NCBI RefSeq assembly: GCF_900188245.1
Contig: NZ_FZOK01000006.1
Location: forward strand, 62,001-126,000
Length of the DNA: 64,000 nt
Origin: Belliella buryatensis
GTDB lineage: Bacteria; Bacteroidota; Bacteroidia; Cytophagales; Cyclobacteriaceae
Reading direction: 5' to 3'
The translations under genes and the position numbers were made by a program. Below, piece by piece: positions 4,454-35,153 of the stretch (position 1 is the stretch's first letter; every line of letters begins with the position of its first letter). Under the pieces are notes generated by a model. It searched no databases. It saw nothing but the letters and a program-made list of their open reading frames with translations, and had not been told where the DNA came from.

Positions 4454-5788
4454 TTAGCCATCATGGGTGGCATTTCTATCAGTGATCAGTAGGTTAGCAA
4501 ATCCAGCTATTATCAAGGAGCAACCAGCCAAAACCATAGTATAAACCACTTCTTCACCAAAGAGTAACTTGTAAGTAAATGTGATTCCTCCAACTGATGC
4601 GATGATTTGTGGTATGACGATGAACATATTGAAAATCCCCATATATATCCCCATTTTATTAGGATCAACTGAACTAGAAAGCATGGCATAAGGCATGGAT
4701 AGAATGCTAGCCCAAGCTATTCCGACCAAGGCAAAACAGATATGAAGCATCCAAGGCTCCGTAATTAGGAAAATAGATATGAAACCAACCCCCCCAGAGA
4801 TAAGGCTGACCATATGTACCAGCTTTCGGTTGATTTTAATCTTGCTGGTTACGAAGGCTAAGATTAATGCCATAAACATAGATACCAATCCATAAGTACC
4901 CAGATAATTACCTACGCTATCAGCTGCATCATTGTAGGCCAAGGATGCTGTATCTGTAGCCTTGAATACATGCTCTGTTATGGCAGGCGTAGCATAAGTC
5001 CACATGGTGAAAAAGGCGAACCAAGAGAAAAACTGAACTATACCCAGTTTTTTCATCACTGAAGGCATGCCTTGGATATTTTCAAAAATCTCTTTGAAGC
5101 CATTGAAAAAGCCCTTGCTAGCTTCCTTTTCTCTTTGAAACTTCTCAAGATCTTCTGGTGGATATTCTTTTGTTGTCAGAATAGTATAGAGTATGGATAA
5201 AAAAAGCACCACGGCGCCAATACCAAATGCAAATTTTACCGAATCAGGAATGACTCCCGGTTCCGCAGTGTTTGGTATTCCAATTTGCGTCATGAACCAC
5301 GGCAGATTACTTGCAATCCATGTCCCAATTCCAATGATCAAAGTCTGGACTACGAATCCATAAGAGCGCTGACTATCTGGAAGTTTGTCTGCAACCAATG
5401 CCCGGAATGGCTCCATGCTAATATTGATAGAAGCATCCAAAATCCATAAGGAGGAAGCAGCCATCCACAATGCGCTAGAGTAGGGAGCGAAAAACAATGC
5501 AATGGTACTAAATACAGCACCAATGAAGAAAAATGGTCTTCTTCTGCCTAAAATTGGATGCCATGTTCTATCACTTAAGTAGCCTACGATGGGTTGTACG
5601 ATCAATCCAGTAAGTGGAGCAGCTAGCCAAAGTATTGGAATATCATCTTTTTCAGCACCAAGGGTCTGAAATATTCTAGACATAAATCCGCCTTGCAATG
5701 CAAAGGCAAACTGAATTCCTAAGAATCCAAAACTCATATTCCAAATTTGCCAAAAGCTCAATCTTGGCTTATTTCCTTCTAGATGCAT
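4454..5788 (-). CDS. MFS sugar transporter (SLC45/maltose type)
   Basis: A 444-residue, roughly 12-helix inner-membrane carrier of the GPH/SLC45-like MFS branch. The GYLSDR and GRRRPF motifs between helices 2 and 4 are characteristic of that branch, whose plant and animal members carry sucrose and other disaccharides with protons. It lies 31 bases downstream of the GH31 alpha-glucosidase and under the same LacI regulator, so maltose or maltodextrin uptake into the cytoplasm is the likely job. Specificity is inferred from context. Confidence 0.88.
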   Translation of the reverse strand: MHLEGNKPRLSFWQIWNMSFGFLGIQFAFALQGGFMSRIFQTLGAEKDDIPILWLAAPLTGLIVQPIVGYLSDRTWHPILGRRRPFFFIGAVFSTIALFFAPYSSALWMAASSLWILDASINISMEPFRALVADKLPDSQRSYGFVVQTLIIGIGTWIASNLPWFMTQIGIPNTAEPGVIPDSVKFAFGIGAVVLFLSILYTILTTKEYPPEDLEKFQREKEASKGFFNGFKEIFENIQGMPSVMKKLGIVQFFSWFAFFTMWTYATPAITEHVFKATDTASLAYNDAADSVGNYLGTYGLVSMFMALILAFVTSKIKINRKLVHMVSLISGGVGFISIFLITEPWMLHICFALVGIAWASILSMPYAMLSSSVDPNKMGIYMGIFNMFIVIPQIIASVGGITFTYKLLFGEEVVYTMVLAGCSLIIAGFANLLITDRNATHDG

Positions 5789-5819: not shown

Positions 5820-8243
5820 TCAAAATTGAATAACAAATTTCTGCTGATGATGAGGAAATGTGAAATGAATCAAACCTTTTACTTCGAAATAAGGGTGGTA
5901 ATGATCAGGTAATGGGTCAAATTCTGTCAGTCTTCCTAGAAAAGCGAAGTTCTCTTTTTCAGCTTTGATATGCTTATTTAAGACTTCGATTTCTTGAGAA
6001 TTCAGACCGTGTATATAAAGCTTAATGGATTTAAATTCAGATTTATATGCACCTTCTGGTGAACTGAAGGTTAAAGTTTTCTGATTAGCTTTCCACCTGA
6101 TGGATCTTTTATAAAAATGTCCACTTTTATGCGCTTGGCTCTTGCCGTCATCTTCGTAGTGTATATAAGTTTGCTCTCCGCTTCCATTGTAGATATGAAG
6201 GTGGAGGACTCCATCATGCTTAGCATCTGTATATGGTACTATTGATTGCATAGAGAATACGGCTCCAGCCTTGACGTATACAGGAAGGTAACTCAATGGA
6301 GTATCCACATAGATTTCCTGATTACCTTGTGATTGATGATCGTTGTACATGTAATACCAGTTTCCTTCAGGTAAATAGACCTTATTGATCATTTTGGTGC
6401 TTTCTAACGGTGCTACTAAAAATGTATCACAGAAAAGGTATTGGTTTTGGTATGCCCCATCGTAAATTTTGGAATCAAATGGATAATCGACAGCTAAGCT
6501 TTTGGCAATAGGAAGTCCATCTAAGGTGCTTTTGTAAAAAGCCGAATAAAGCGTAGGAAGCAATTGATACCTTAACTTCATGTAATTACGAGAAATCTCT
6601 TCCACTTCTTCACCAAAAGACCAAGGTTCAGAATCACAAGTATTGATCATGGAATGTGCCCTATAAAATGGTGCAAATGCTGCAATACTCATCCATCGAG
6701 CAAATAATGCCTTGCTCGCCTCTCCTGCAAATCCTCCTACATCATAACCTGAAAAGGCGACTCCACTTAAGCCAAGACTATTAACTAGTCTCACTCCTGC
6801 AAGCATGTGCTCGTCAGAAGAGACATTGTCACCTGTCCATGCAGCTGCAAAGCGCTGTATCCCTGAGAATCCTGATCTGGTCAATACAAAAGCCCTTTGT
6901 TCTGGGGCTTGCATTTCACTTCCTTCCTTCGCTGCACGAGCCATCTGCATGCCGTATATATTTCTCGCCTTACGGTGACTGACCTGCTCTCCTTCATAAT
7001 CAAAATTGATCAGGTTGGGTGTGAATTGCCCCCAAGAAGCAGGTTCATTCATATCAGTCCAATAACCATCGATACCAGCATCCTTATAGAATTTCATCTT
7101 TTCTCCCCACCAATTTCTTGTTTTTTCTTTGGTGAAATCAGGGAATGCACACCAGCCAGGCCAAACTTGTCCTTCATAAATCTCTCCATCTGGAAATTTC
7201 ACAAAAAGGTCTTTGTGCTTTCCATCTTCATATGGTTCATAGCCCAATTCTGTTTTGATCCCTGGATCCATGATTACGACTACCTTGAATCCCTGCTCTT
7301 TGAGTTTTTTGATCATGGATTGAGGATCGGGGAATTTTTCGCCATCAAAGGTGAAAACCTTATATTTTTCCATGTGATGTATATCAAGATAGATTACATC
7401 AGCAGGCATATCTTTTTCCCTGAAAGTCTGTGCGAGAGTTAAGACCTCAGATTCTGGATAATAAGAATAGCGACATTGTTGATAACCTAATGCCCACATT
7501 GGTGGCATTTCCATTTTCCCTGTCAGTCGAGTGTAGGTGCTGATGATTTTTCCTACAGAATCGTCGTGCATGAAATAGTAATCCATATCGCCATCATCGG
7601 CAGAATAATACATGAACCGTCTATTGGATGCACCAAAATTGAAAATAGTCTTGTATGTATTATCAAAGTAGATCCCGTATGCAGATCGATCTAAAACACC
7701 AATGTAGAATGGAATGGACATGTAAAGTGGGTCATCACCTACACCATAAGCAAAGTAATCGGTATTCCAATTAGTGTAAGCATTACCTGCTCGATTCAAA
7801 TTTCCTGTTTTCTCACCCAGACCTATAAACTTCTCGTTGGGCTGTAGTTTTTTATAATTACTAACTTCAGTACCTAGCCAAGAAACTGAAAAGGCTTCAT
7901 CATCTTCATTCAGCAAGTTTCCATTGCTATCGAAAAATTTGATATGAAAGGGATATTTATTAATGATGGCTTCAATTTTATCCGTTTTGATTTTGATATT
8001 ATCAGATCCTTCCTCAATTGCAAAAGAGGTTTGGCTTGGATTTATCACCACACTATATGGGTTGGGAGAGAAATTTTCATCTTTTGTTATTTGAACACGT
8101 ATCGTATCAGCCTCATAGACGGTGATTTTGAAAATTGCCGTATCTGTACTACCCAAGATGCCCCATGGTTTCCGATTCCAAACTTGAATATTTCCAGCCT
8201 GCTGATTTTGAGTATTTTGTTTGATTTGAGTAGAAGTGATCAT
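5820..8243 (-). CDS. GH31 alpha-glucosidase, cytoplasmic
   Basis: An 807-residue glycoside hydrolase family 31 enzyme that releases glucose from the non-reducing end of alpha-glucans. An N-terminal beta-sandwich (about 30-240) precedes the (beta/alpha)8 barrel. The nucleophile is D397 in WTDMNEP and the acid/base is D472 in WTGDN; C-terminal beta domains follow. There is no signal peptide, so it acts in the cytoplasm on sugar imported by the adjacent MFS carrier. A LacI-type operator lies in the 212-base gap upstream, between this gene and lacI. Length and motifs are normal and the gene is intact. Confidence 0.95.
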   Translation of the reverse strand: MITSTQIKQNTQNQQAGNIQVWNRKPWGILGSTDTAIFKITVYEADTIRVQITKDENFSPNPYSVVINPSQTSFAIEEGSDNIKIKTDKIEAIINKYPFHIKFFDSNGNLLNEDDEAFSVSWLGTEVSNYKKLQPNEKFIGLGEKTGNLNRAGNAYTNWNTDYFAYGVGDDPLYMSIPFYIGVLDRSAYGIYFDNTYKTIFNFGASNRRFMYYSADDGDMDYYFMHDDSVGKIISTYTRLTGKMEMPPMWALGYQQCRYSYYPESEVLTLAQTFREKDMPADVIYLDIHHMEKYKVFTFDGEKFPDPQSMIKKLKEQGFKVVVIMDPGIKTELGYEPYEDGKHKDLFVKFPDGEIYEGQVWPGWCAFPDFTKEKTRNWWGEKMKFYKDAGIDGYWTDMNEPASWGQFTPNLINFDYEGEQVSHRKARNIYGMQMARAAKEGSEMQAPEQRAFVLTRSGFSGIQRFAAAWTGDNVSSDEHMLAGVRLVNSLGLSGVAFSGYDVGGFAGEASKALFARWMSIAAFAPFYRAHSMINTCDSEPWSFGEEVEEISRNYMKLRYQLLPTLYSAFYKSTLDGLPIAKSLAVDYPFDSKIYDGAYQNQYLFCDTFLVAPLESTKMINKVYLPEGNWYYMYNDHQSQGNQEIYVDTPLSYLPVYVKAGAVFSMQSIVPYTDAKHDGVLHLHIYNGSGEQTYIHYEDDGKSQAHKSGHFYKRSIRWKANQKTLTFSSPEGAYKSEFKSIKLYIHGLNSQEIEVLNKHIKAEKENFAFLGRLTEFDPLPDHYHPYFEVKGLIHFTFPHHQQKFVIQF

Positions 8244-8406: not shown

Positions 8407-8420
8407 TTCAAACGTTTGCA
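8407..8420. promoter_or_regulatory. LacI-family operator, site 1
   Basis: A perfect 10-bp palindrome (CAAACGTTTG, 8409-8418) with a central CG. It matches TGCAAACGTTTGCA at 13 of 14 positions. This is the classic half-site arrangement for LacI/MalR-type repressors. It lies between the lacI stop and the GH31 start and would control the GH31-MFS operon. Confidence 0.65.
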
Positions 8421-8455
8421 TAAAAAAGTGCAAAAAATCTCAAAATAATTCATAA

Positions 8456-9484
8456 TTATTTCACCGAAGACTTTCTTATGAGCAATTCAGTCTCTAAAAC
8501 CAAGGTTTTAGTGGCATCATAACTTCTATCTTTATTGTCTATCATTTCTAGAAGCAATTGAGTTGCTTTCTCACCCATTTTGAATCCAGGTTGAGCAACT
8601 GTAGAAAGAGGAGGGTCTATCATGGAACAAAATTGCCAATTAGAAAAGCCAACCACACCTACTTGTTTTGGTACTTTATATCCTAGTTTCTTTAAAGCCA
8701 TCATGGCACCTGCGGCGGCAATGTCATTGCTTGCAAAAAATCCATTTGGAAAATCTCCACCTTCCTCAAATAGTTGTTCGGTGATTTTCATACTTTCTTC
8801 TTGCGTGCCCATAGGACAGGGTAAAATCCAATCTGGATTAATTTCTAAGCCATGGTCCCTCAGCGCAGCTTGATAGCCATCCATTCGTTTTTTGCTGATA
8901 GTTAGATTTTTCGGGCCTGCTAAGTGAGCTATGGAGGTATACCCTTGACTGATCAAGTGTTTGGTGGCATCATATGCTCCTTGATAGTCATTCACTGTGA
9001 CATTGACTGTATTTTCAATTTCTGGTACGCGGTCAAAGAAAACTATAGGGAAATTTTGAGCCATAAGTTTAGAAAAATGACTAAATTCTTCAGTTTCTTT
9101 TGAGTAGCTGACCAATAATCCATCGATTTGATTCGCGAGCATCGTATCTATACTAGAGAGCTCTCTTTGGAGTTTTTCATTGGTCTGGCACAAAATCACA
9201 TTGTACCCATTGGCATAGGCTACCTCTTCAATTCCGCTGATGACCGTAGAAAAAAAGAAATGTACAACTTCAGGAATAATCACGCCTATTGTGAAGGATT
9301 TACTTTTTCTCAAACTAAGCGCAACTGCATTTGGCCTGTAGTTTAGTTTTTCGGCAAGTTCCTTGACTTTTCTTTTGGTTTCGTCGCTGATTCCAGGATA
9401 GTCTTTCAAAGCTCTGGAAACAGTAGATGAAGAGACATTGAGCTCTCTAGCAATGTCTTTGATGGTAGCTTGGCCTAGTTTCAT
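8456..9484 (-). CDS. LacI-family transcription regulator of the maltose locus
   Basis: 342 residues. The N-terminal helix-turn-helix (about 7-30, TIKDIARELNVSSSTVSRAL) and the hinge helix (YRPNAVALSL, about 48-58) are intact. A periplasmic-binding-like effector domain (60-342) follows. It heads the minus-strand run lacI-GH31-MFS and faces the susE/GH13 genes. Two palindromes of LacI type flank the gene, one near 8.41 kb and one near 9.63 kb, so it probably regulates both directions in response to maltose or a derivative. The effector is inferred. Confidence 0.9.
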   Translation of the reverse strand: MKLGQATIKDIARELNVSSSTVSRALKDYPGISDETKRKVKELAEKLNYRPNAVALSLRKSKSFTIGVIIPEVVHFFFSTVISGIEEVAYANGYNVILCQTNEKLQRELSSIDTMLANQIDGLLVSYSKETEEFSHFSKLMAQNFPIVFFDRVPEIENTVNVTVNDYQGAYDATKHLISQGYTSIAHLAGPKNLTISKKRMDGYQAALRDHGLEINPDWILPCPMGTQEESMKITEQLFEEGGDFPNGFFASNDIAAAGAMMALKKLGYKVPKQVGVVGFSNWQFCSMIDPPLSTVAQPGFKMGEKATQLLLEMIDNKDRSYDATKTLVLETELLIRKSSVK

Positions 9485-9609
9485 GAAAATTATATTATTC
9501 TAAGAATTTAAATATAGGGTAATTTTGAGAAATATAGCTATCCGAGATAATTTTAATATTCGTCTCATCTGTTGGGTTTTGTGGTTCTAAGTTTTTTGGT
9601 GGAAGAAAT

Positions 9610-9643
9610 TTGTGGTTCATGCAAACGATTGCGGTGACCTTTG
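9610..9643 (+). promoter_or_regulatory. Candidate promoter of the susE-GH13 operon with operator inside
   Basis: TTG at 9610-9612 and GACCTTTG at 9636-9643 (one mismatch to TAnnTTTG) are 23 bases apart, at the loose end of the usual spacing. The LacI-type palindrome 9620-9633 fills the spacer, the expected place for a repressor. Transcription from here would give a leader of about 190 bases before susE. Confidence 0.4.
9620..9633. promoter_or_regulatory. LacI-family operator, site 2
   Basis: The 14 bases match the palindrome TGCAAACGTTTGCA at 12 positions, and the core at 9621-9632 is symmetric except for one base. It resembles site 1 at 8407-8420, so the same regulator probably binds both. 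Confidence 0.6.
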
Positions 9644-9838
9644 CATACATTTATTTAAATTATTTTTTACTAGAATCCTTGCTGTTAAAAATTGCTTTTA
9701 CTAATATAGATAAGTTGGATTTGTGATCTAATAAAACAATTCAAAAAATCAATTAGATTAATTATAATAAAATTAAGTAAAAACATAAATTATTTAACCC
9801 TATCGAATTAACAATTTATACCAAAAATCAATCAAATT

Positions 9839-10882
9839 ATGAGAGTATTTAGTAAACTTCTATTTATTGTATTTGCATTACCGTTAGTATGGTCATGTGA
9901 GACTTTGGATGAGCCAAGGCTTATCACACAAACTTGAGCGATGATCACAGACGCTCCTAGTAATTTGGTTCTTACAAGAGAAGAAGCAGATGATTTTATT
10001 GTTTTTAATGTGAGTTCAGCTGACTTCGGAGTAAGTGTATCTGAGGTAACTTACACCATTCAAATAGATGCCGCTGGAAATAATTTTGCAGCACCAGTTG
10101 CTGTTGGTTCTTCGCCTACAACTACTGTCGAAGTAAACATCGACGAGTTGAATAGAAGAGCTGTGGCAAAAGGTCTTGAAGCTGAAGTTGCTGGTAATAT
10201 TGAGTTCAGAGTGAGTGCTTCTACCACAAGAGCAGGCTTACCAACTGTCAACGGCGATGCTGTGACCATTTCTATTACGCCTTACTCAACTGAGGTAGAG
10301 CTTCCTTTCTTGAGAGTTCCTGGAGATTATCAAGGCTGGAACCCAGGTAATGACAACACCATCATCTATTCTGAAAATTCTGACGATGTATATGAAGGTT
10401 TTGTTCATATTTTATCTGGTTCTGGTGAATTTAAATTTATCACGGGTCCAGCTTGGGGAGATTTTCCTGACTTTGGTGTGGGTGCAACAGCGGGTACGCT
10501 TTCTGAAGGAGGAGGAAACCTGAAAATTGAGGACGGTTTTGGTACTTATAAAGTAACAGTTAATAAAGAAACATTTACTTATGAAAAAGAGAGAATAGGT
10601 ATCTGGGGAATCATAGGAGATGCTACCGCTGGTGGTTGGGATAATGAAACACCTATGATATTTGACGCCGCCGAAAATATCTTGAAAATCACTACGGATT
10701 TAAATGCAGGTGAAATGAAGTTTAGAACTCAGACTTGGGCAATGAACTATGGTGTTTCAGGCGAAGATGGTGTAGCTGGTTTCGATGGAGGAAATATTCA
10801 GATTGCTGAGGCTGGAAATTATACGATTATTTTAGACTTCAAACTTCCTGGAGAAGTAAGATATTCAGTTACTAAAAACTAA
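9839..10882 (+). pseudogene. SusE-like starch-binding lipoprotein, interrupted by in-frame TGA
   Basis: Reading from ATG 9839, the first 32 codons give a lipoprotein signal ending in LVWSC and then ETLDEPRLITQT. TGA follows at 9935-9937, after which the same frame continues unbroken from 9938 to TAA at 10882. The downstream part matches the SusE pattern: an N-terminal fibronectin-like domain (opening with SNLVLTREEADD), then two SusE/SusF-type starch-binding modules (LRVPGDYQGWNPG; IWGIIGDATAGGWDN). Without readthrough only a 32-residue peptide is lipidated. An internal restart at ATG 9941 would make a 313-residue protein with no signal, stranded in the cytoplasm. A single base change (for example TCA to TGA) explains it. 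Confidence 0.85.
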
Positions 10883-10897
10883 TACATATTAATTTTT

Positions 10898-10930
10898 AAG
10901 AAAAGTATCGGTTTAGCCGGTACTTTTCTT
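10898..10930 (+). terminator. Hairpin terminator/attenuator between susE and GH13
   Basis: A 14-bp stem (10898-10911 with 10917-10930, one G-T pair) with a 5-base loop; the 3' arm is T-rich and runs into CTTTTAATT. It could end the susE message or reduce readthrough into the amylase gene. Confidence 0.65.
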
Positions 10931-10985
10931 CTTTTAATTAAATCAGGTTAGTAAAGTCCTGACACATACATTATCTCCTATCAAA

Positions 10986-13781
10986 ATGAAATCCAGAATT
11001 ACCATATCCATTTATTTACTAGCATTTTTATTTTTTCTAGTTCTGCAATTGCACAAGTTACTACTCAACCAAGTTTTCCTAGAGCGGATCAAAAAGTAAA
11101 GATTATCTATGATGCAACTCAAGGTGCCTCAGGTTTGGTTGGAGAGGACCCTGTCTATATTCATATAGGCGCAGTCACTCAAGGACCAACTTCTACAACT
11201 TGGTCAATTGTTCCCTTCGAATGGGGTACTGCCAATCCTGATGCTAGAATGACCAAAGTAGAAGGTGAGTCTGATGTATGGGAATGGGAATTGACGCCCA
11301 ATGAACTTTTTGAAATTTCTGGAGATCAGACTGTCTTCCGTTTAGGGATGGTCTTTAGGGTATGCTACAGGGAATAGAGAGGGTAAAACTGCTACCAATG
11401 GTGATTTTTTTGTCAACCTTAGTCAAGGTTTTGAGGTCAGTTTTACAAATCCACAGACATCTTCCATATTATTAGAAATAGGAGAGTCTCAAGAAATTAA
11501 AATCGTTGCATCTGAAAGCTCGGAACTTAGTATATCGGTCAATGAAAGTATTGTTGCTTCAGCTACATCAGTGGATGAACTTGAATATACTTTTTTAGCT
11601 ACAGAAGAAGGTACCTTTAATATTTTGGCAAAAGCCACTGCAGGTGAAGAAGAGTCAACTGCAGAACTGACAATCAATGTAGTAGATCAGAGCCCACAGG
11701 CTCCAATTCCATCGGGAGCGATCAAAGGAATTAATTACATTTCTGATACTGAAGTTATACTGGTTTTAGAGGCGCCATTCAAGAAAAATGTCTTTGTCAT
11801 TGGAGATTTTAATGATTGGCAAATAAGACCAGAATATCAAATGTTTCAAACACCAGATAAGGAAAAATTCTGGTTGAGACTGACAAATTTAGAAGTTGGG
11901 AAGGAGTATATTTTTCAATATCTAGTAGACGGAAGTATTCGAATTGGGGATCCTTATGCTGAAAAAGTTTCGGATCCATTTCACGATCAAGAAATCATAG
12001 ATCAGAATAGATATCCTGGTTTGTTACCTTATCCACAAGGAAAGACAGAATTTCAAGCTTCCTATCTACAAACAGCACAGCAACCTTATGAATGGAAATA
12101 CTTAGATTACAATAAACCCAAACCAGAGGAGTTAGTCGTTTATGAACTTTTGGTGAGAGATTTTGATGATAAGAGGACTTACAAGGCAGTAACAGAGCGC
12201 CTCGATTATTTGAAAGATTTAGGAATCAATGCAATTGAATTGATGCCGATCAAGGAATTTGAAGGAAACTTATCTTGGGGTTATAATCCATCATTTTTCT
12301 TTGCCGCAGATAAATTCTATGGTCCAAAAAATGACCTTAAAGAACTAATCGATGAGGCTCATAAAAGAGACATGGTTGTGATCCTTGACATGGTACTCAA
12401 CCATGCTTTTGGTCAAAATCCTATGGTGAGATTATACAATGATGGAGATTATGGAGCTCCGACTGAGGATAACCCTTGGTTCAATAGAGTAGCTAGACAC
12501 CCATTTAACGTGGGCTATGATTTCAACCATGAAAGTGAATATACCAAGGCTTTTGTAGATACAGTGAATCACTACTGGTTGTCTGAATATAAATTTGATG
12601 GCTATCGATTTGATTTGAGTAAAGGTTTCACACAGGTCAACTCAGGAGATAATGTGAGTTTTTGGAGTCAGCGAGATGAATCTAGAATTGCCATCTGGAA
12701 GAACATCTATGACAATATCAAAAAGGATTTCCCCGATGCCTATTTGATTTTAGAGCATTTTGCAGACAATTCAGAGGAAACTGAGCTGGCTAATTATGGA
12801 TTGATGTTTTGGGGCAATATGAATGGTGATTTCCGAGCTATGGCCAAAGGTGAAAATAGAAATTTCGATTGGGGCTATTATAAAAGAAGGGGTTGGAATC
12901 AAAGTAATTTAGTGACTTACATGGAGAGTCATGATGAAGAAAGGACGATGTGGGAGTCCCTTACCTTCGGACAGACTTCTCCTGTAAATATTAGACAATT
13001 GAAAAACGCAGTCAATAGAAATCAACTGCTGGCTACGTTTTTCTTTGCAATTCCAGGTCCTAAAATGCTCTGGCAATTTGAAGAATTTGGTTATGATTTG
13101 GAATTGAACAATGACAGGTTAGGAATCAAGCCTACAAGATGGAATTACCTAGATAATGAAGATAGGGTAAGACTCTATAACCTTTACAGGGCTATGATCA
13201 AATTGAAAAACGAGTATAATTTGTTCAATGACCCCGATGATGCTGCACTTTCATTTAACAATGCACTCAAGTCTATAGTCTCAAAAGATGGAAACTTAGA
13301 AATGGTTTTATACGGAAATTTTGGAAATACAACCATCAACAATGCCACGATTACTTTCCCATCTAACGGTACTTGGTACAATTATTTTACAGGTGATGAA
13401 ATCACAGTAAGTGGAAGCGAAATTACAGCTAGGTTGAGGCCTAGCCAATTTTTGTTATTTACCAATGAAAAGCTTTCATTACCTGAAGGTGAAATTTTAG
13501 AAGAAGTCATTACGTCGATTGATAATGAAAGAATTGATTCAGGCGCTTTTAAAATTTATCCTAATCCATCTGATGATAAGATCAATGTTTCTTTACCAAG
13601 AGGTTTCAATCAATTTCAATATAAAATTCTAGATGTAACAGGAAAAGTACTCGTGGAAGGTGGGAGTACTGCGGTTTCTGATATTTTAGAGCTTGAAATA
13701 AGGGATTTTAAAGCAGGTCTTTATATCTTTGACCTCAATGATAACCGCCAAGTATTGCGAAAGCGGTTTATTAAAAAATAA
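10986..13781 (+). pseudogene. Type IX-secreted GH13 amylase with two frameshifts
   Basis: ATG 10986 begins a signal peptide in frame 0 that is lost in the T-rich run 11025-11036. One extra T would restore ...AFLFFSSSAIAQ and join the second frame (to about 11357). That frame would then end at TAG 11375-11377. Removing one G from GGG 11358-11360 joins the third frame, which is open to 13781. The rest is a normal GH13 amylase/pullulanase-like enzyme. It has an N-terminal beta domain, an Ig-like repeat and a CBM48-like module (VIGDFNDW). The barrel carries catalytic Asp at 12612 (DGYRFD), Glu at 12753 (LILEHF) and Asp at 12933 (ESHDEE). A type A sorting domain (YPNPSDDKINV to the terminal KRFIKK) marks it for type IX export. 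As written, no full-length exported product can be made. Confidence 0.85.
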
Positions 13782-13802
13782 ACAAACCATTAAATCGAAA
13801 AG

Positions 13803-14864
13803 ATGAAATTCAAACCAGGAGTAAAGTATGGGGAAGAGCTTAAAGACCTTTTATCCTATGCTAAGGAAAATGAATTTGCTTTACCAGCTGTCAATGTAAT
13901 TAATACAAGTACCATTAATGGTGTCTTGGAGACAGCTAAAAAGGTAAATTCACCAGTAATTATTCAATTCTCTAATGGAGGCGCTCAGTTTTTTGCAGGC
14001 AAAGGTCTTCCAAACGATAAGCAACAAGCAAGTGTAGCGGGAGCGATTTCTGGTGCTATCCACGTGCACAAAATGGCAGAAGCTTATGGTGTACCAGTTA
14101 TTTTACACACTGATCATGCAGCCAAAAAACTTCTTCCTTGGATTGATGGTATGTTGGCAGAAGGCCAAGCTTACTACGAGGCATTCAAGAGACCTTTATA
14201 CAGTTCACATATGTTGGATCTTTCTGAAGAGTCTTTGGAAGAGAATATTGAGACCTCAGTAAAGTACCTTGAAGAATTCAATAAACTTCAAATGGCAATC
14301 GAAATCGAGTTGGGTGTAACTGGAGGTGAAGAAGATGGTGTAGATAACTCGGATGTAGATAGCTCTAAACTTTATACCCAGCCGGAGGAAGTTGCCTATG
14401 CCTATGAGAAATTGAAGCAGGTAAGTGATTTATTTACAATTGCTGCGGCCTTTGGTAATGTTCATGGTGTTTACAAGCCAGGGAATGTTTCCTTGAGACC
14501 TGAAATTCTTAAAAATTCTCAAGACTATATCAATCAGAAGTTTGGAACAACAGGTAAACCATTGTTTTTTGTATTCCATGGTGGTTCTGGTTCTTCAGTG
14601 GAAGAAATCAGAGAAGCTAATAGCTATGGTTCTATCAAAATGAACATTGATACAGACATGCAATGGGCTTTTTGGGAAGGGATTTTGAATTTCTATAAAA
14701 CAAATGAAGGCTATCTTCAAAGTCAGCTTGGTAATCCGACTGGATCTGATAGTCCTAATAAAAAATTCTACGATCCGAGAGTCTGGTTGAGAAAAGGAGA
14801 AGAAAACTTTGTCAAAAGACTTGAAGTGGCCTTCGATATGCTCAATGCAGTGAATAGAAATTAA
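13803..14864 (+). CDS. fbaA: Class II fructose-bisphosphate aldolase
   Basis: A 353-residue zinc-dependent aldolase that splits fructose-1,6-bisphosphate into dihydroxyacetone phosphate and glyceraldehyde-3-phosphate. The HTDH motif gives a zinc ligand at H102 or H105 and the catalytic Asp D104. The later conserved FHGGSGSS and NIDTDMQWAF segments bind phosphate. The length fits the FbaA (class IIA) group. It starts 21 bases after the GH13 pseudogene and lies among the amylase genes, so it may share the maltose promoter. A terminator follows. It is intact, in contrast to the gene before it. Confidence 0.95.
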   Translation: MKFKPGVKYGEELKDLLSYAKENEFALPAVNVINTSTINGVLETAKKVNSPVIIQFSNGGAQFFAGKGLPNDKQQASVAGAISGAIHVHKMAEAYGVPVILHTDHAAKKLLPWIDGMLAEGQAYYEAFKRPLYSSHMLDLSEESLEENIETSVKYLEEFNKLQMAIEIELGVTGGEEDGVDNSDVDSSKLYTQPEEVAYAYEKLKQVSDLFTIAAAFGNVHGVYKPGNVSLRPEILKNSQDYINQKFGTTGKPLFFVFHGGSGSSVEEIREANSYGSIKMNIDTDMQWAFWEGILNFYKTNEGYLQSQLGNPTGSDSPNKKFYDPRVWLRKGEENFVKRLEVAFDMLNAVNRN

Positions 14865-14884
14865 GAATTAAGCAAATCAGTCAG

Positions 14885-14912
14885 GAAAAGGTCACTTTTT
14901 AGTGACTTTTTC
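14885..14912 (+). terminator. Rho-independent terminator after fbaA
   Basis: The stem around GGTCACT/AGTGACT, with flanking A-T pairs and a TTTT loop, is followed by a long T tract. It separates fbaA from the GH13 lipoprotein gene. Confidence 0.7.
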
Positions 14913-14932
14913 TTTTTTTATTAAATTGAACC

Positions 14933-16483
14933 ATGAAAAAAAATTTATTGCTCTTAATCCTTTCGGTTTTGATTCTATTTTCATCTTGTGACAGCAATCT
15001 TGGAACCGAAGTGGAAAATCATTGGCCTCAGGCTGGGGTCACCTACGAAATTTTTATTCAATCATTTTATGACTCCGACGGGGATGGTATAGGAGACATC
15101 AATGGAGTTACTAAGAAGCTTTACCATGTCAAAGAATTGGGTGCAGATGCAATTTGGTTTATGCCAATCATGCCTTCTCCCAGTTATCACAAGTATGATG
15201 TGACAGATTATAAGGAGATTCATCCAGATTATGGAACCATGGATGATTTCAAAAATCTTATCAAAGAAGCACATAAGAATGATATCAAAATTGTGATCGA
15301 TATGATTATCAATCACACCAGCACTGAGCACCCATGGTTTCAAGAGTCACAAAAAAGTAGGGATAATCCTTATAGAGATTATTATGTTTGGGCACAAAAG
15401 GATACGATTGCAGATTTTTTGAATAAAAAAACGATTACCCTAGATTCTGATAATATTAGACAATGGCATGATCCTGGGCAAGGAGAAGACTTTTACTATG
15501 GGTTTTTCTATGGTGGTATGCCAGATTTGAATTTTGATAATCCAAAGGTAAGAGAAGAAATTTATGATATAGGTAGATTTTGGTTGGAAGAAGTTGGAGT
15601 AGATGGATTCAGACTAGACGCAGCCAAGCATATATTCCCAGATGATAGACCAGAGGACAACCACGCATTTTGGAAAGAGTTTAGAGAGGAAATGTCAAAA
15701 GTTAAACCTGATGTATATTTAGTAGGAGAAGTGTATGATATGAAAGAGATCGTAGCTCCTTATTTGCCTGGTCTACCTGCATTATTCAATTTTGATTTTC
15801 ATTATACCTTGTTAGAGGCATATGAAAAAGTTGACGGGATGCTGTTAGCTAGGAAGCAAAAAGAGATATTGGATTTTTATAACGCTATCACGGATGATTT
15901 TATTGATGCCACTTTTTCATCCAATCACGACCAGCCAAGATTGCTGAACTCACTAGATCAGAATCCAAAGAAATACAAACAAGCCATCAATATCTTGATG
16001 TCCATGCCAGGAGCTCCATATTTGTACTATGGAGAAGAAATCGGAATGTTGGGTAAAAAACCAGATGAAAACATCAGAGAGCCTTTCGTATGGGATATCA
16101 AAGCAAATGATAAGGGAAGAACCACTTGGATAGAACCTGAATACTCCATTGATGATACAGTAACCCCTTTGGCTATTCAAAAATCGATGAGCACTAGTTA
16201 TTTTAATCATTACAAAGAAATCATCAGGTTAAGAAATACAAATCGGGCACTCGCTTTGGGAGATTTAGAGTTGTATGAGGAATCTATTCCTAAAGAATTG
16301 ATGGCCTATTATAGAACTCATGATAAGCAAGTGCTGTTTGTGGTACACAACCTAAGTGATCAAGAAGTTAAAATTGCTGCGCCAGAAGATTATTCATGGC
16401 CTATTTATAGCTATGGCATGGCTGAAATTCAAGAAGGTCAACTTAGATTGCCAGCATACTCAAGTATCATACTTGAAAAATAA
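14933..16483 (+). CDS. GH13 alpha-glucosidase/amylase, lipoprotein
   Basis: 516 residues. A lipoprotein signal ends in LFSSC, so the enzyme is anchored to a membrane, probably the periplasmic face or the cell surface. The GH13 barrel is complete: nucleophile D229 (DGFRLDAAKH), acid/base E266 (VGEVYD) and transition-state D333 (SSNHDQ), with a small C-terminal beta domain. The DSDGDGIGDINGV loop near residue 48 is the calcium-binding sequence of the oligo-1,6-glucosidase and alpha-amylase branch. It likely degrades maltodextrins in the envelope. It is intact, and is the only visible GH13 in the locus that can still work. Confidence 0.92.
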   Translation: MKKNLLLLILSVLILFSSCDSNLGTEVENHWPQAGVTYEIFIQSFYDSDGDGIGDINGVTKKLYHVKELGADAIWFMPIMPSPSYHKYDVTDYKEIHPDYGTMDDFKNLIKEAHKNDIKIVIDMIINHTSTEHPWFQESQKSRDNPYRDYYVWAQKDTIADFLNKKTITLDSDNIRQWHDPGQGEDFYYGFFYGGMPDLNFDNPKVREEIYDIGRFWLEEVGVDGFRLDAAKHIFPDDRPEDNHAFWKEFREEMSKVKPDVYLVGEVYDMKEIVAPYLPGLPALFNFDFHYTLLEAYEKVDGMLLARKQKEILDFYNAITDDFIDATFSSNHDQPRLLNSLDQNPKKYKQAINILMSMPGAPYLYYGEEIGMLGKKPDENIREPFVWDIKANDKGRTTWIEPEYSIDDTVTPLAIQKSMSTSYFNHYKEIIRLRNTNRALALGDLELYEESIPKELMAYYRTHDKQVLFVVHNLSDQEVKIAAPEDYSWPIYSYGMAEIQEGQLRLPAYSSIILEK

Positions 16484-34942: not shown

Positions 34943-34946
34943 TCTG

Positions 34947-35020
34947 CGGAATGGACGGGACTCGAACCCGCGACCTCCTGCGTGACAGGCAGGCATTCTA
35001 ACCAGCTGAACTACCACTCC
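34947..35020 (-). tRNA. tRNA-Asp (GTC), copy 1
   Basis: A 74-base cloverleaf read on the minus strand. The acceptor GGAGTGG pairs with CCATTCC (one G-U), the D-loop contains AGCTGGTTAGA, the anticodon GTC is at 34986-34984 and the T arm is GGGTTCGAGTCCC. The discriminator is G and the CCA end is not encoded. Identical to the second copy. Confidence 0.97.
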
Positions 35021-35025
35021 ATTAT

Positions 35026-35067
35026 TTTTGAGTTGTTGTAATGATAAAGATTTTTTGCAACTCAAAA
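35026..35067 (-). repeat. 10-bp inverted repeat between the two tRNA genes
   Basis: TTTTGAGTTG (35026-35035) and its complement (35058-35067) flank a 22-base loop. In a joint transcript this hairpin would separate the two tRNAs and could be a processing signal. Confidence 0.5.
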
Positions 35068-35079
35068 CAAAAAACCTTG

Positions 35080-35153
35080 CGGAATGGACGGGACTCGAAC
35101 CCGCGACCTCCTGCGTGACAGGCAGGCATTCTAACCAGCTGAACTACCACTCC
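35080..35153 (-). tRNA. tRNA-Asp (GTC), copy 2
   Basis: The same 74 bases as copy 1, with anticodon GTC, the same G-U in the acceptor stem, discriminator G and no encoded CCA. It lies 59 bases upstream of copy 1 in transcription order, so the two are likely one unit. Confidence 0.97.

Follow-up and report, generated by a model that had tools for sequence, protein, structure and literature searches.

A SusCD-less alpha-glucan locus with broken susE and amylase genes in Belliella buryatensis

The window analysed here is a stretch of 64,000 bases from Belliella buryatensis, namely bases 62001-126000 of contig 29 in a genome of 3,877,983 bases and 52 contigs. It contains a starch (alpha-glucan) locus. 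Genes for an MFS carrier, a GH31 alpha-glucosidase and a LacI-family regulator lie on the minus strand and are followed on the plus strand by genes for a SusE-like lipoprotein, a secreted GH13 amylase, a class II fructose-bisphosphate aldolase and a GH13 lipoprotein (Table 1). The susE and amylase genes are broken, and the tandem susC-susD pair by which a Sus-type polysaccharide utilization locus (PUL) is recognized is absent. An initial annotation described the locus as losing its outer-membrane arm while keeping the inner one. It covered positions 8407-16483, a range that leaves out the MFS and GH31 genes, both named in its finding.

Table 1. Features of the alpha-glucan locus, with positions in the window
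Feature	Position	Strand	Basis
MFS carrier, SLC45/sucrose-symporter-like, "type B"	4454..5788	-	Pfam MFS_1 1.8e-26; best PDB match SUC1 1.9e-21
GH31 alpha-glucosidase, no evident signal peptide	5820..8243	-	Pfam GH31 6e-118
LacI-type operator-like palindrome upstream of GH31	8407..8421		TTCAAACGTTTGCAT
LacI-family regulator, intact	8456..9484	-	Pfam LacI 1.3e-15, Peripla_BP_1 5.5e-36
LacI-type operator-like palindrome, divergent promoter region	9620..9634		Sequence inspection
SusE-like lipoprotein gene, broken	9839..10882	+	In-frame TGA at 9935-9937 (codon 33)
Secreted GH13 amylase gene with type IX sorting tail, broken	10986..13781	+	Two frameshifts
Class II fructose-bisphosphate aldolase, intact	13803..14864	+	Pfam 4.9e-82
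GH13 lipoprotein with SusG C-terminal domain, intact	14933..16483	+	Pfam Alpha-amylase 5.5e-98, SusG_C 1.7e-17

Broken and intact genes of the locus

The nearest relative compared is B. pelovolcani (G004), whose matching contig has 148,550 bases and carries intact homologs of both broken genes. The intact susE lies at 8649-9701 of its locus (L033), and the intact amylase gene, encoding 931 amino acids, lies at 9806-12601. In B. buryatensis, the nonsense codon in susE is a substitution. The open reading frame (ORF) restarts at ATG 9941 and runs to the end of the gene, and it still contains the SusE body (Pfam SusE 8.5e-19, SusF_SusE 1.4e-14). By this match the locus has its SusE/SusF lipoprotein, though in broken form. 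The amylase is 97% identical to that of B. pelovolcani. Its first frameshift lies inside the signal peptide, which is out of frame with the mature protein, and the second lies between 11359 and 11364. Homology to the B. pelovolcani protein runs in frame 2 up to 11359 (94% identity) and in frame 3 from 11364 to 13778 (96%). The C-terminal sorting domain is recognized by Por_Secre_tail (3.2e-10), and by TIGR04183 (5.5e-9) in the intact B. pelovolcani protein. Judging from the reading frames, restarts at 9941 or 11571 could yield fragments without a signal peptide. Loss of the type IX secretion system as a cause of amylase decay was rejected because PorV is present.

The frames of LacI, GH31, MFS, aldolase and GH13 lipoprotein are all open. 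The signal peptides of GH31, the amylase and the GH13 lipoproteins were judged by eye. The MFS carrier is related to the GPH sucrose symporters, and by the rule of TIGR01301 (116.9 bits against a cut-off of 511) it is not a member of that family. GH31 matches NCBIfam MalA at 4.5e-143, below the cut-off of that model. The first PDB match of the GH13 lipoprotein is 1wza and the next is SusG (3k8k); the protein might be located at the cell surface. The GH31 protein, the GH13 lipoprotein and the broken GH13 amylase are linked at the locus, and we infer that these glycoside hydrolases act on one glycan. The regulator has a LacI DNA-binding domain, and the palindromes at both promoters are putative operators for it. 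In these descriptive points the initial annotation was accurate. It had listed LacI, GH31, MFS and the GH13 lipoprotein as intact, and it had reported the stop in susE, the two amylase frameshifts, operators at both promoters and the absence of susC and susD from their expected place.

Two forms of the locus in near Cyclobacteriaceae

The gap between lacI and susE is only 354 bp, and no SusC or SusD match was found at 1e-6 in 20 kb around the locus. A single script was used to recount 40 loci of the near family and the outgroup locus Alg240-R148. SusC and SusD matches are absent from 29 of the 40 loci, and the other 11 carry both. The GH13 lipoprotein is present in all 29 SusCD-less loci (form B), and SusE is found in 22, counting the broken copy of B. 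buryatensis. SusE is missing from seven: the loci of G006 and Rhodonellum and five more from Algoriphagus or Cyclobacteriaceae. An intact amylase is found in 26 of the 29 loci, and the three exceptions are B. buryatensis, G006 and Nitritalea. The Nitritalea locus (L093), which has 10 stops in the amylase and split frames of GH31, aldolase and PfkA, is probably a poor assembly. Closer to B. buryatensis, both SusE and the amylase are intact in seven of eight compared Belliella or near loci (B. pelovolcani, B. calami, B. aquatica, B. filtrata, B. kenyensis, G003 and G008), and G006 lacks both. In the tree of the locus, B. calami is the species nearest to G006.

The 11 susCD-bearing loci (form A, the Litoribacter/G063 type, with two Litoribacter loci among them) share LacI, GH31 and the GH13 lipoprotein with form B. 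They differ in having susC-susD (11/11), susE (10/11) and another type of MFS carrier; the amylase is found in eight of them. The aldolase gene adjoins the amylase gene or its remnant in all 29 SusCD-less loci and in 7 of the 11 susCD-bearing ones; in Litoribacter the two genes are about 7 kb apart. The outgroup Alg240-R148 has the order susC-susD-susE-amylase, and several more distant loci also have sus genes beside this amylase family, which suggests that the presence of susCD is probably the ancestral state.

The carrier type follows the form of the locus. Compared with the MFS protein of the window, carriers of the 11 susCD-bearing loci are 47-51% identical (type A) and those of the 28 other SusCD-less loci are 78-98% identical (type B), so that type A accompanies susCD in 11/11 loci and type B its absence in 29/29. 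A survey of 196 family members, sampled evenly out of a larger group, gave a similar picture; G003 and G006 are not among the rows listed. We considered all 42 genomes with a best LacI of 63% identity or more to that of the window, the next rows being at most 57%. All 31 genomes with a type B carrier have a lacI-amylase distance of at most 1.7 kb, and in two of them it is about 0.3 kb, leaving no room for SusE. All eight genomes with both a type A carrier and the amylase have a distance of 6.05-6.27 kb. Three type A genomes (G061, G153 and G202) have no amylase row, and all of them carry susC and susD. Outside the 42 genomes the link to the carrier is not general, and genus g65 and G013 depart from it. 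In genus g65 the MFS is 54-55% identical and the lacI-amylase distance is short (G071, G131, G183) or long (G162). G013 has a type-A-like MFS and no sus match beside the amylase.

Gene trees do not give one clean history of susCD. A tree of LacI, GH31, aldolase and GH13 lipoprotein places Pararhodonellum, which has a type B locus, within the susCD-bearing group (0.969). This placing is supported by values of 0.969 and 0.991, and the next node up has 0.404. The full form A group does not appear in the single-gene trees of LacI or GH31 as drawn, and the MFS of Pararhodonellum groups with form B. With such conflicting trees, one loss, two losses and a mosaic origin are not distinguishable. In a midpoint-rooted SusE tree without supports, the SusE proteins of SusCD-less loci fall together, and the Litoribacter SusE groups with a SusE from a GH53 locus of G003.

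The operator-like pattern is also found in relatives. The interval between GH31 and lacI holds it in 29/29 SusCD-less and 5/11 susCD-bearing loci. The divergent region has it no more than 330 bp from lacI in 24/29 and 9/11 of them, respectively; the pattern was picked after the sites had been seen, and the counts come without a chance expectation.

Amylase loss has occurred several times. In the sister species G006, SusE and the amylase are deleted, and about 35 codons of the amylase tail remain between lacI and aldolase. The susCD-bearing loci show similar losses. G202 retains 28 codons of the amylase tail beside susC, susD and susE. In G153 susCDE are present and the locus shows no match to this type of amylase, and at the G061 locus susCD stand without SusE and without this amylase. 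Since the amylase is also lost from loci that keep susCD, its loss appears to be independent of susCD. The G126 amylase has a nonsense codon within its sorting tail, at 889 of the 924 codons aligned, which its relative G063 does not have. The catalytic part of the G126 amylase gene (L159 7941-5170, minus strand) is open despite this stop. The remnants of two independent amylase deletions (L039 6435-6539 and L165 13054-13137) both consist of the last 28-35 tail codons before the aldolase gene. This retained stretch perhaps matters for aldolase expression.

Origin of the broken genes

The most probable explanation, in our judgement, is that the locus is an old and widespread SusCD-less alpha-glucan locus of near Cyclobacteriaceae, in which SusE and the amylase were inactivated recently in B. 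buryatensis, independently of an ancient loss of susCD. The recent decay itself is ordinary, and the SusCD-less starch locus beneath it is less so. The initial annotation had counted the missing susCD as part of the loss of an outer-membrane arm. One part of that description stands: surface genes are broken, cytoplasmic and inner-membrane genes are kept, and G006 has deleted the same two genes. The missing susCD does not belong to this process, since B. pelovolcani and members of other genera have the same arrangement with SusE and the amylase intact. A relative of this kind is what the initial annotation had itself named as refuting its view, and it does so for the susCD part.

Several points weigh against this explanation. 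The lesions are seen in one draft assembly of one strain, and one amylase frameshift sits in a T-rich stretch. Three very young lesions could equally well be a trait of the species or a loss that arose within the strain or in culture. B. pelovolcani also has one clearly truncated gene of the PhzC-PhzF family, so breakage is not unique to B. buryatensis. Maltodextrins might be imported through any of the 14 SusD_RagB matches of the genome. Starch use may also persist through the GH13 lipoproteins, if these are surface-located.

The age of the lesions was approached by assigning changes to the B. buryatensis and B. pelovolcani branches, with other Belliella species as outgroups. In the amylase, the numbers of amino-acid and silent changes are 20/71 on the B. 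buryatensis branch and 15/59 on the B. pelovolcani branch. Other genes on the B. buryatensis branch gave 5/23 (LacI), 31/97 (GH31), 2/20 (MFS), 5/58 (aldolase), 14/69 (GH13 lipoprotein) and 4/41 (PfkA). There is no clear excess of amino-acid changes on the B. buryatensis branch of the amylase. From these counts, constraint probably acted on the amylase along most of that branch, and since no clear relaxation is seen, the lesions look young. SusE gave 47/54 on the B. buryatensis branch and 20/27 on the B. pelovolcani branch. It cannot serve as a clock of relaxed selection, since B. pelovolcani and G003 share an identical 3' part of the gene. From about residue 200, the B. pelovolcani SusE is 100% identical to the G003 SusE (L034) and 57-76% identical to that of B. 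buryatensis. Over the first 200 residues, identity between the B. pelovolcani and G003 proteins is 62-94% per 50-residue window. This looks like a trace of recombination between species that affected the starch-binding part of SusE in B. pelovolcani.

Such young lesions could be private to the strain or have arisen in culture, with the species otherwise degrading starch. We regard this as the strongest of the alternatives and still as doubtful. Some time is needed for three separate lesions to arise in two genes, and the sister species and other genera have lost the same gene, which suggests a recurrent ecological cause.

It is somewhat less likely that polymer digestion is unaffected and the broken genes are redundant, with GH13 lipoproteins acting at the surface and another SusCD importing the products. 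The GH13 lipoprotein of the locus does have the SusG C-terminal domain, contig 14 encodes another GH13 protein whose signal looks lipoprotein-like by eye, and the SusD_RagB matches offer candidate importers. However, the GH13 lipoprotein occurs in every SusCD-less locus, and nearly all of these keep an intact amylase beside it, so the amylase is not generally redundant. A second SusE match of the genome, on contig 16, has neighbours that look pectin-related by eye.

A starch-type susCD relocated within the B. buryatensis genome was also sought and rejected. With the Litoribacter SusD as the query, this genome gave three partial matches of 28%, 30% and 44% identity (best E 1.7e-16). Among nine genomes searched with the same query, a near-full-length match was found only in G003 (78%) and G005 (41%). 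An ortholog of the starch-type SusD is present at the locus in 5/5 form A genomes. Of 10 form B genomes, eight have no match at E 1e-60, and the exceptions are G056 (78%, elsewhere in the genome) and G037 (41%). Altogether, four of the 18 other form B genomes searched have a full-length SusD match (G003, G056, G005 and G037).

The matches of G003 and G056 lie in a near-identical GH53 locus common to both. This locus has the order HTCS-GH53-863aa-susC-susD-susE and is found at 1-12876 of L150 (G003) and at 3-12675 of L172 (G056, Indibacter alkaliphilus), with proteins that are 96-100% identical. G003 and G056 differ in genus, and their starch-locus proteins are 59-82% identical. The high identity points to a recent horizontal transfer of the whole GH53 glycan locus. 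Downstream of it in L150 are two ORFs that resemble an IS21 pair (by eye).

Sequencing or assembly errors are an unlikely source of the stop and frameshifts. The draft state of the genome and the indel in the T-rich run would favour them. To compare gene integrity, B. pelovolcani contig ORFs of at least 120 amino acids were matched to the contig of the window, with more than 80% identity taken as a match. Of 120 ORFs, eight were unmatched, 108 were intact and four were flagged. Two of the four flags are the neighbouring SusE and amylase. The other two have a single stop at residue 23/479 and 4/277 of the B. pelovolcani ORF; the ORFs of the window behind them hold complete SRP54 and Patatin domains, which makes a start called too far upstream the probable cause of both flags. 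Among 112 matched ORFs, then, only SusE and the amylase are broken, and 110 are undamaged (two of these after the start check). In the reverse comparison of 186 ORFs, 73 had no match above 80%, 108 were intact and five were flagged. One of the five is cut by the contig end and two have a stop in the last four residues. The rest are a MurB-like ORF with stops at residues 12 and 15 and the PhzC-PhzF-family ORF with a stop at residue 192/262. The PhzC-PhzF-family gene, truncated in B. pelovolcani, is open in B. buryatensis (L049 9595-10383). All three lesions of the window are in two adjacent genes, which a general error rate would not explain, and one of them is a substitution. The lesions are very probably real.

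A single continuing process, in which susCD, SusE and the amylase go together as the outer-membrane arm, is highly improbable: the importer is missing and surface genes are broken in the same locus, and the seven SusCD-less loci without SusE would agree with it, but 26 of the 29 SusCD-less loci keep an intact amylase, and three loci with susCD (L164, L165 and L166) have no amylase or only a remnant of it, so that the losses are not tied.

Possible starch use and comparison with known systems

From the gene content, its conservation, the lesions and the operator-like sites, we infer the following route. A LacI-type repressor would act at the two promoters. In relatives with intact genes, SusE would hold starch at the surface, and the secreted amylase would cut it to short maltodextrins. 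These may enter via a porin or an unlinked SusCD, with no SusC-SusD at the locus. The GH13 lipoprotein would trim the maltodextrins, the type B MFS carrier would bring them in, and the cytoplasmic GH31 would make glucose. In B. buryatensis, the steps that hold and cut starch would be disabled. The cell would probably live on maltose or maltodextrins that other organisms produce, or use the GH13 lipoproteins it still has. A shift to maltodextrin scavenging, as suggested earlier, is plausible on these genomic grounds.

A broader reading is that near Cyclobacteriaceae have two forms of the locus, in which loss of the importer and exchange of the carrier came together, perhaps repeatedly, as Pararhodonellum suggests. 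The whole SusCD-less group would then use starch by means of SusE and a secreted amylase, without a dedicated SusCD, and the amylase could be dropped by cheaters that feed on what others release, with B. buryatensis as an example. We offer this tentatively. If it is true, the type B carrier would be matched to smaller products, and the secreted amylase would be free to be lost.

The Sus operon of Bacteroides thetaiotaomicron is a regulated locus with a SusE-family lipoprotein, a SusG-like GH13 lipoprotein and an alpha-glucosidase. The Belliella locus has all three of these components. It differs in lacking susC and susD and in having a LacI-type regulator, a type IX secreted amylase and an inner-membrane MFS carrier. 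In B. buryatensis, SusE and the amylase are also broken. The SusC-SusD pair is taken as the core that defines a Bacteroidota glycan locus, and programs that call PULs usually ask for it. Such programs would overlook a conserved starch locus in which SusE and a secreted amylase occur without SusCD, and a locus of this kind raises the question of how the products pass the outer membrane.

Marine Flavobacteriia have alpha-1,4-glucan PULs that resemble the Belliella locus in their GH13 and GH31 sets and also exist in reduced versions (PMC6298971). The reduced versions, for example those of all Maribacter isolates, lack susE/susF, and the authors suggest that they target maltodextrin or amylose (PMC6298971). 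As described there, the reduced flavobacterial PULs drop susE/susF, whereas the SusCD-less Cyclobacteriaceae loci drop susCD and mostly keep SusE (PMC6298971). Titles and abstract openings among the literature matches listed named no SusCD-less starch locus with SusE, which does not show that such a locus is unpublished. The matches listed also gave nothing usable on the starch phenotype of Belliella.

B. pelovolcani with the genes intact and B. buryatensis with the genes freshly broken, together with the deletion in G006, provide a natural test of the idea that the secreted amylase is a public good which certain lineages give up. Elsewhere in the window, two tRNA-Asp (GTC) genes lie in tandem at 34946-35153.

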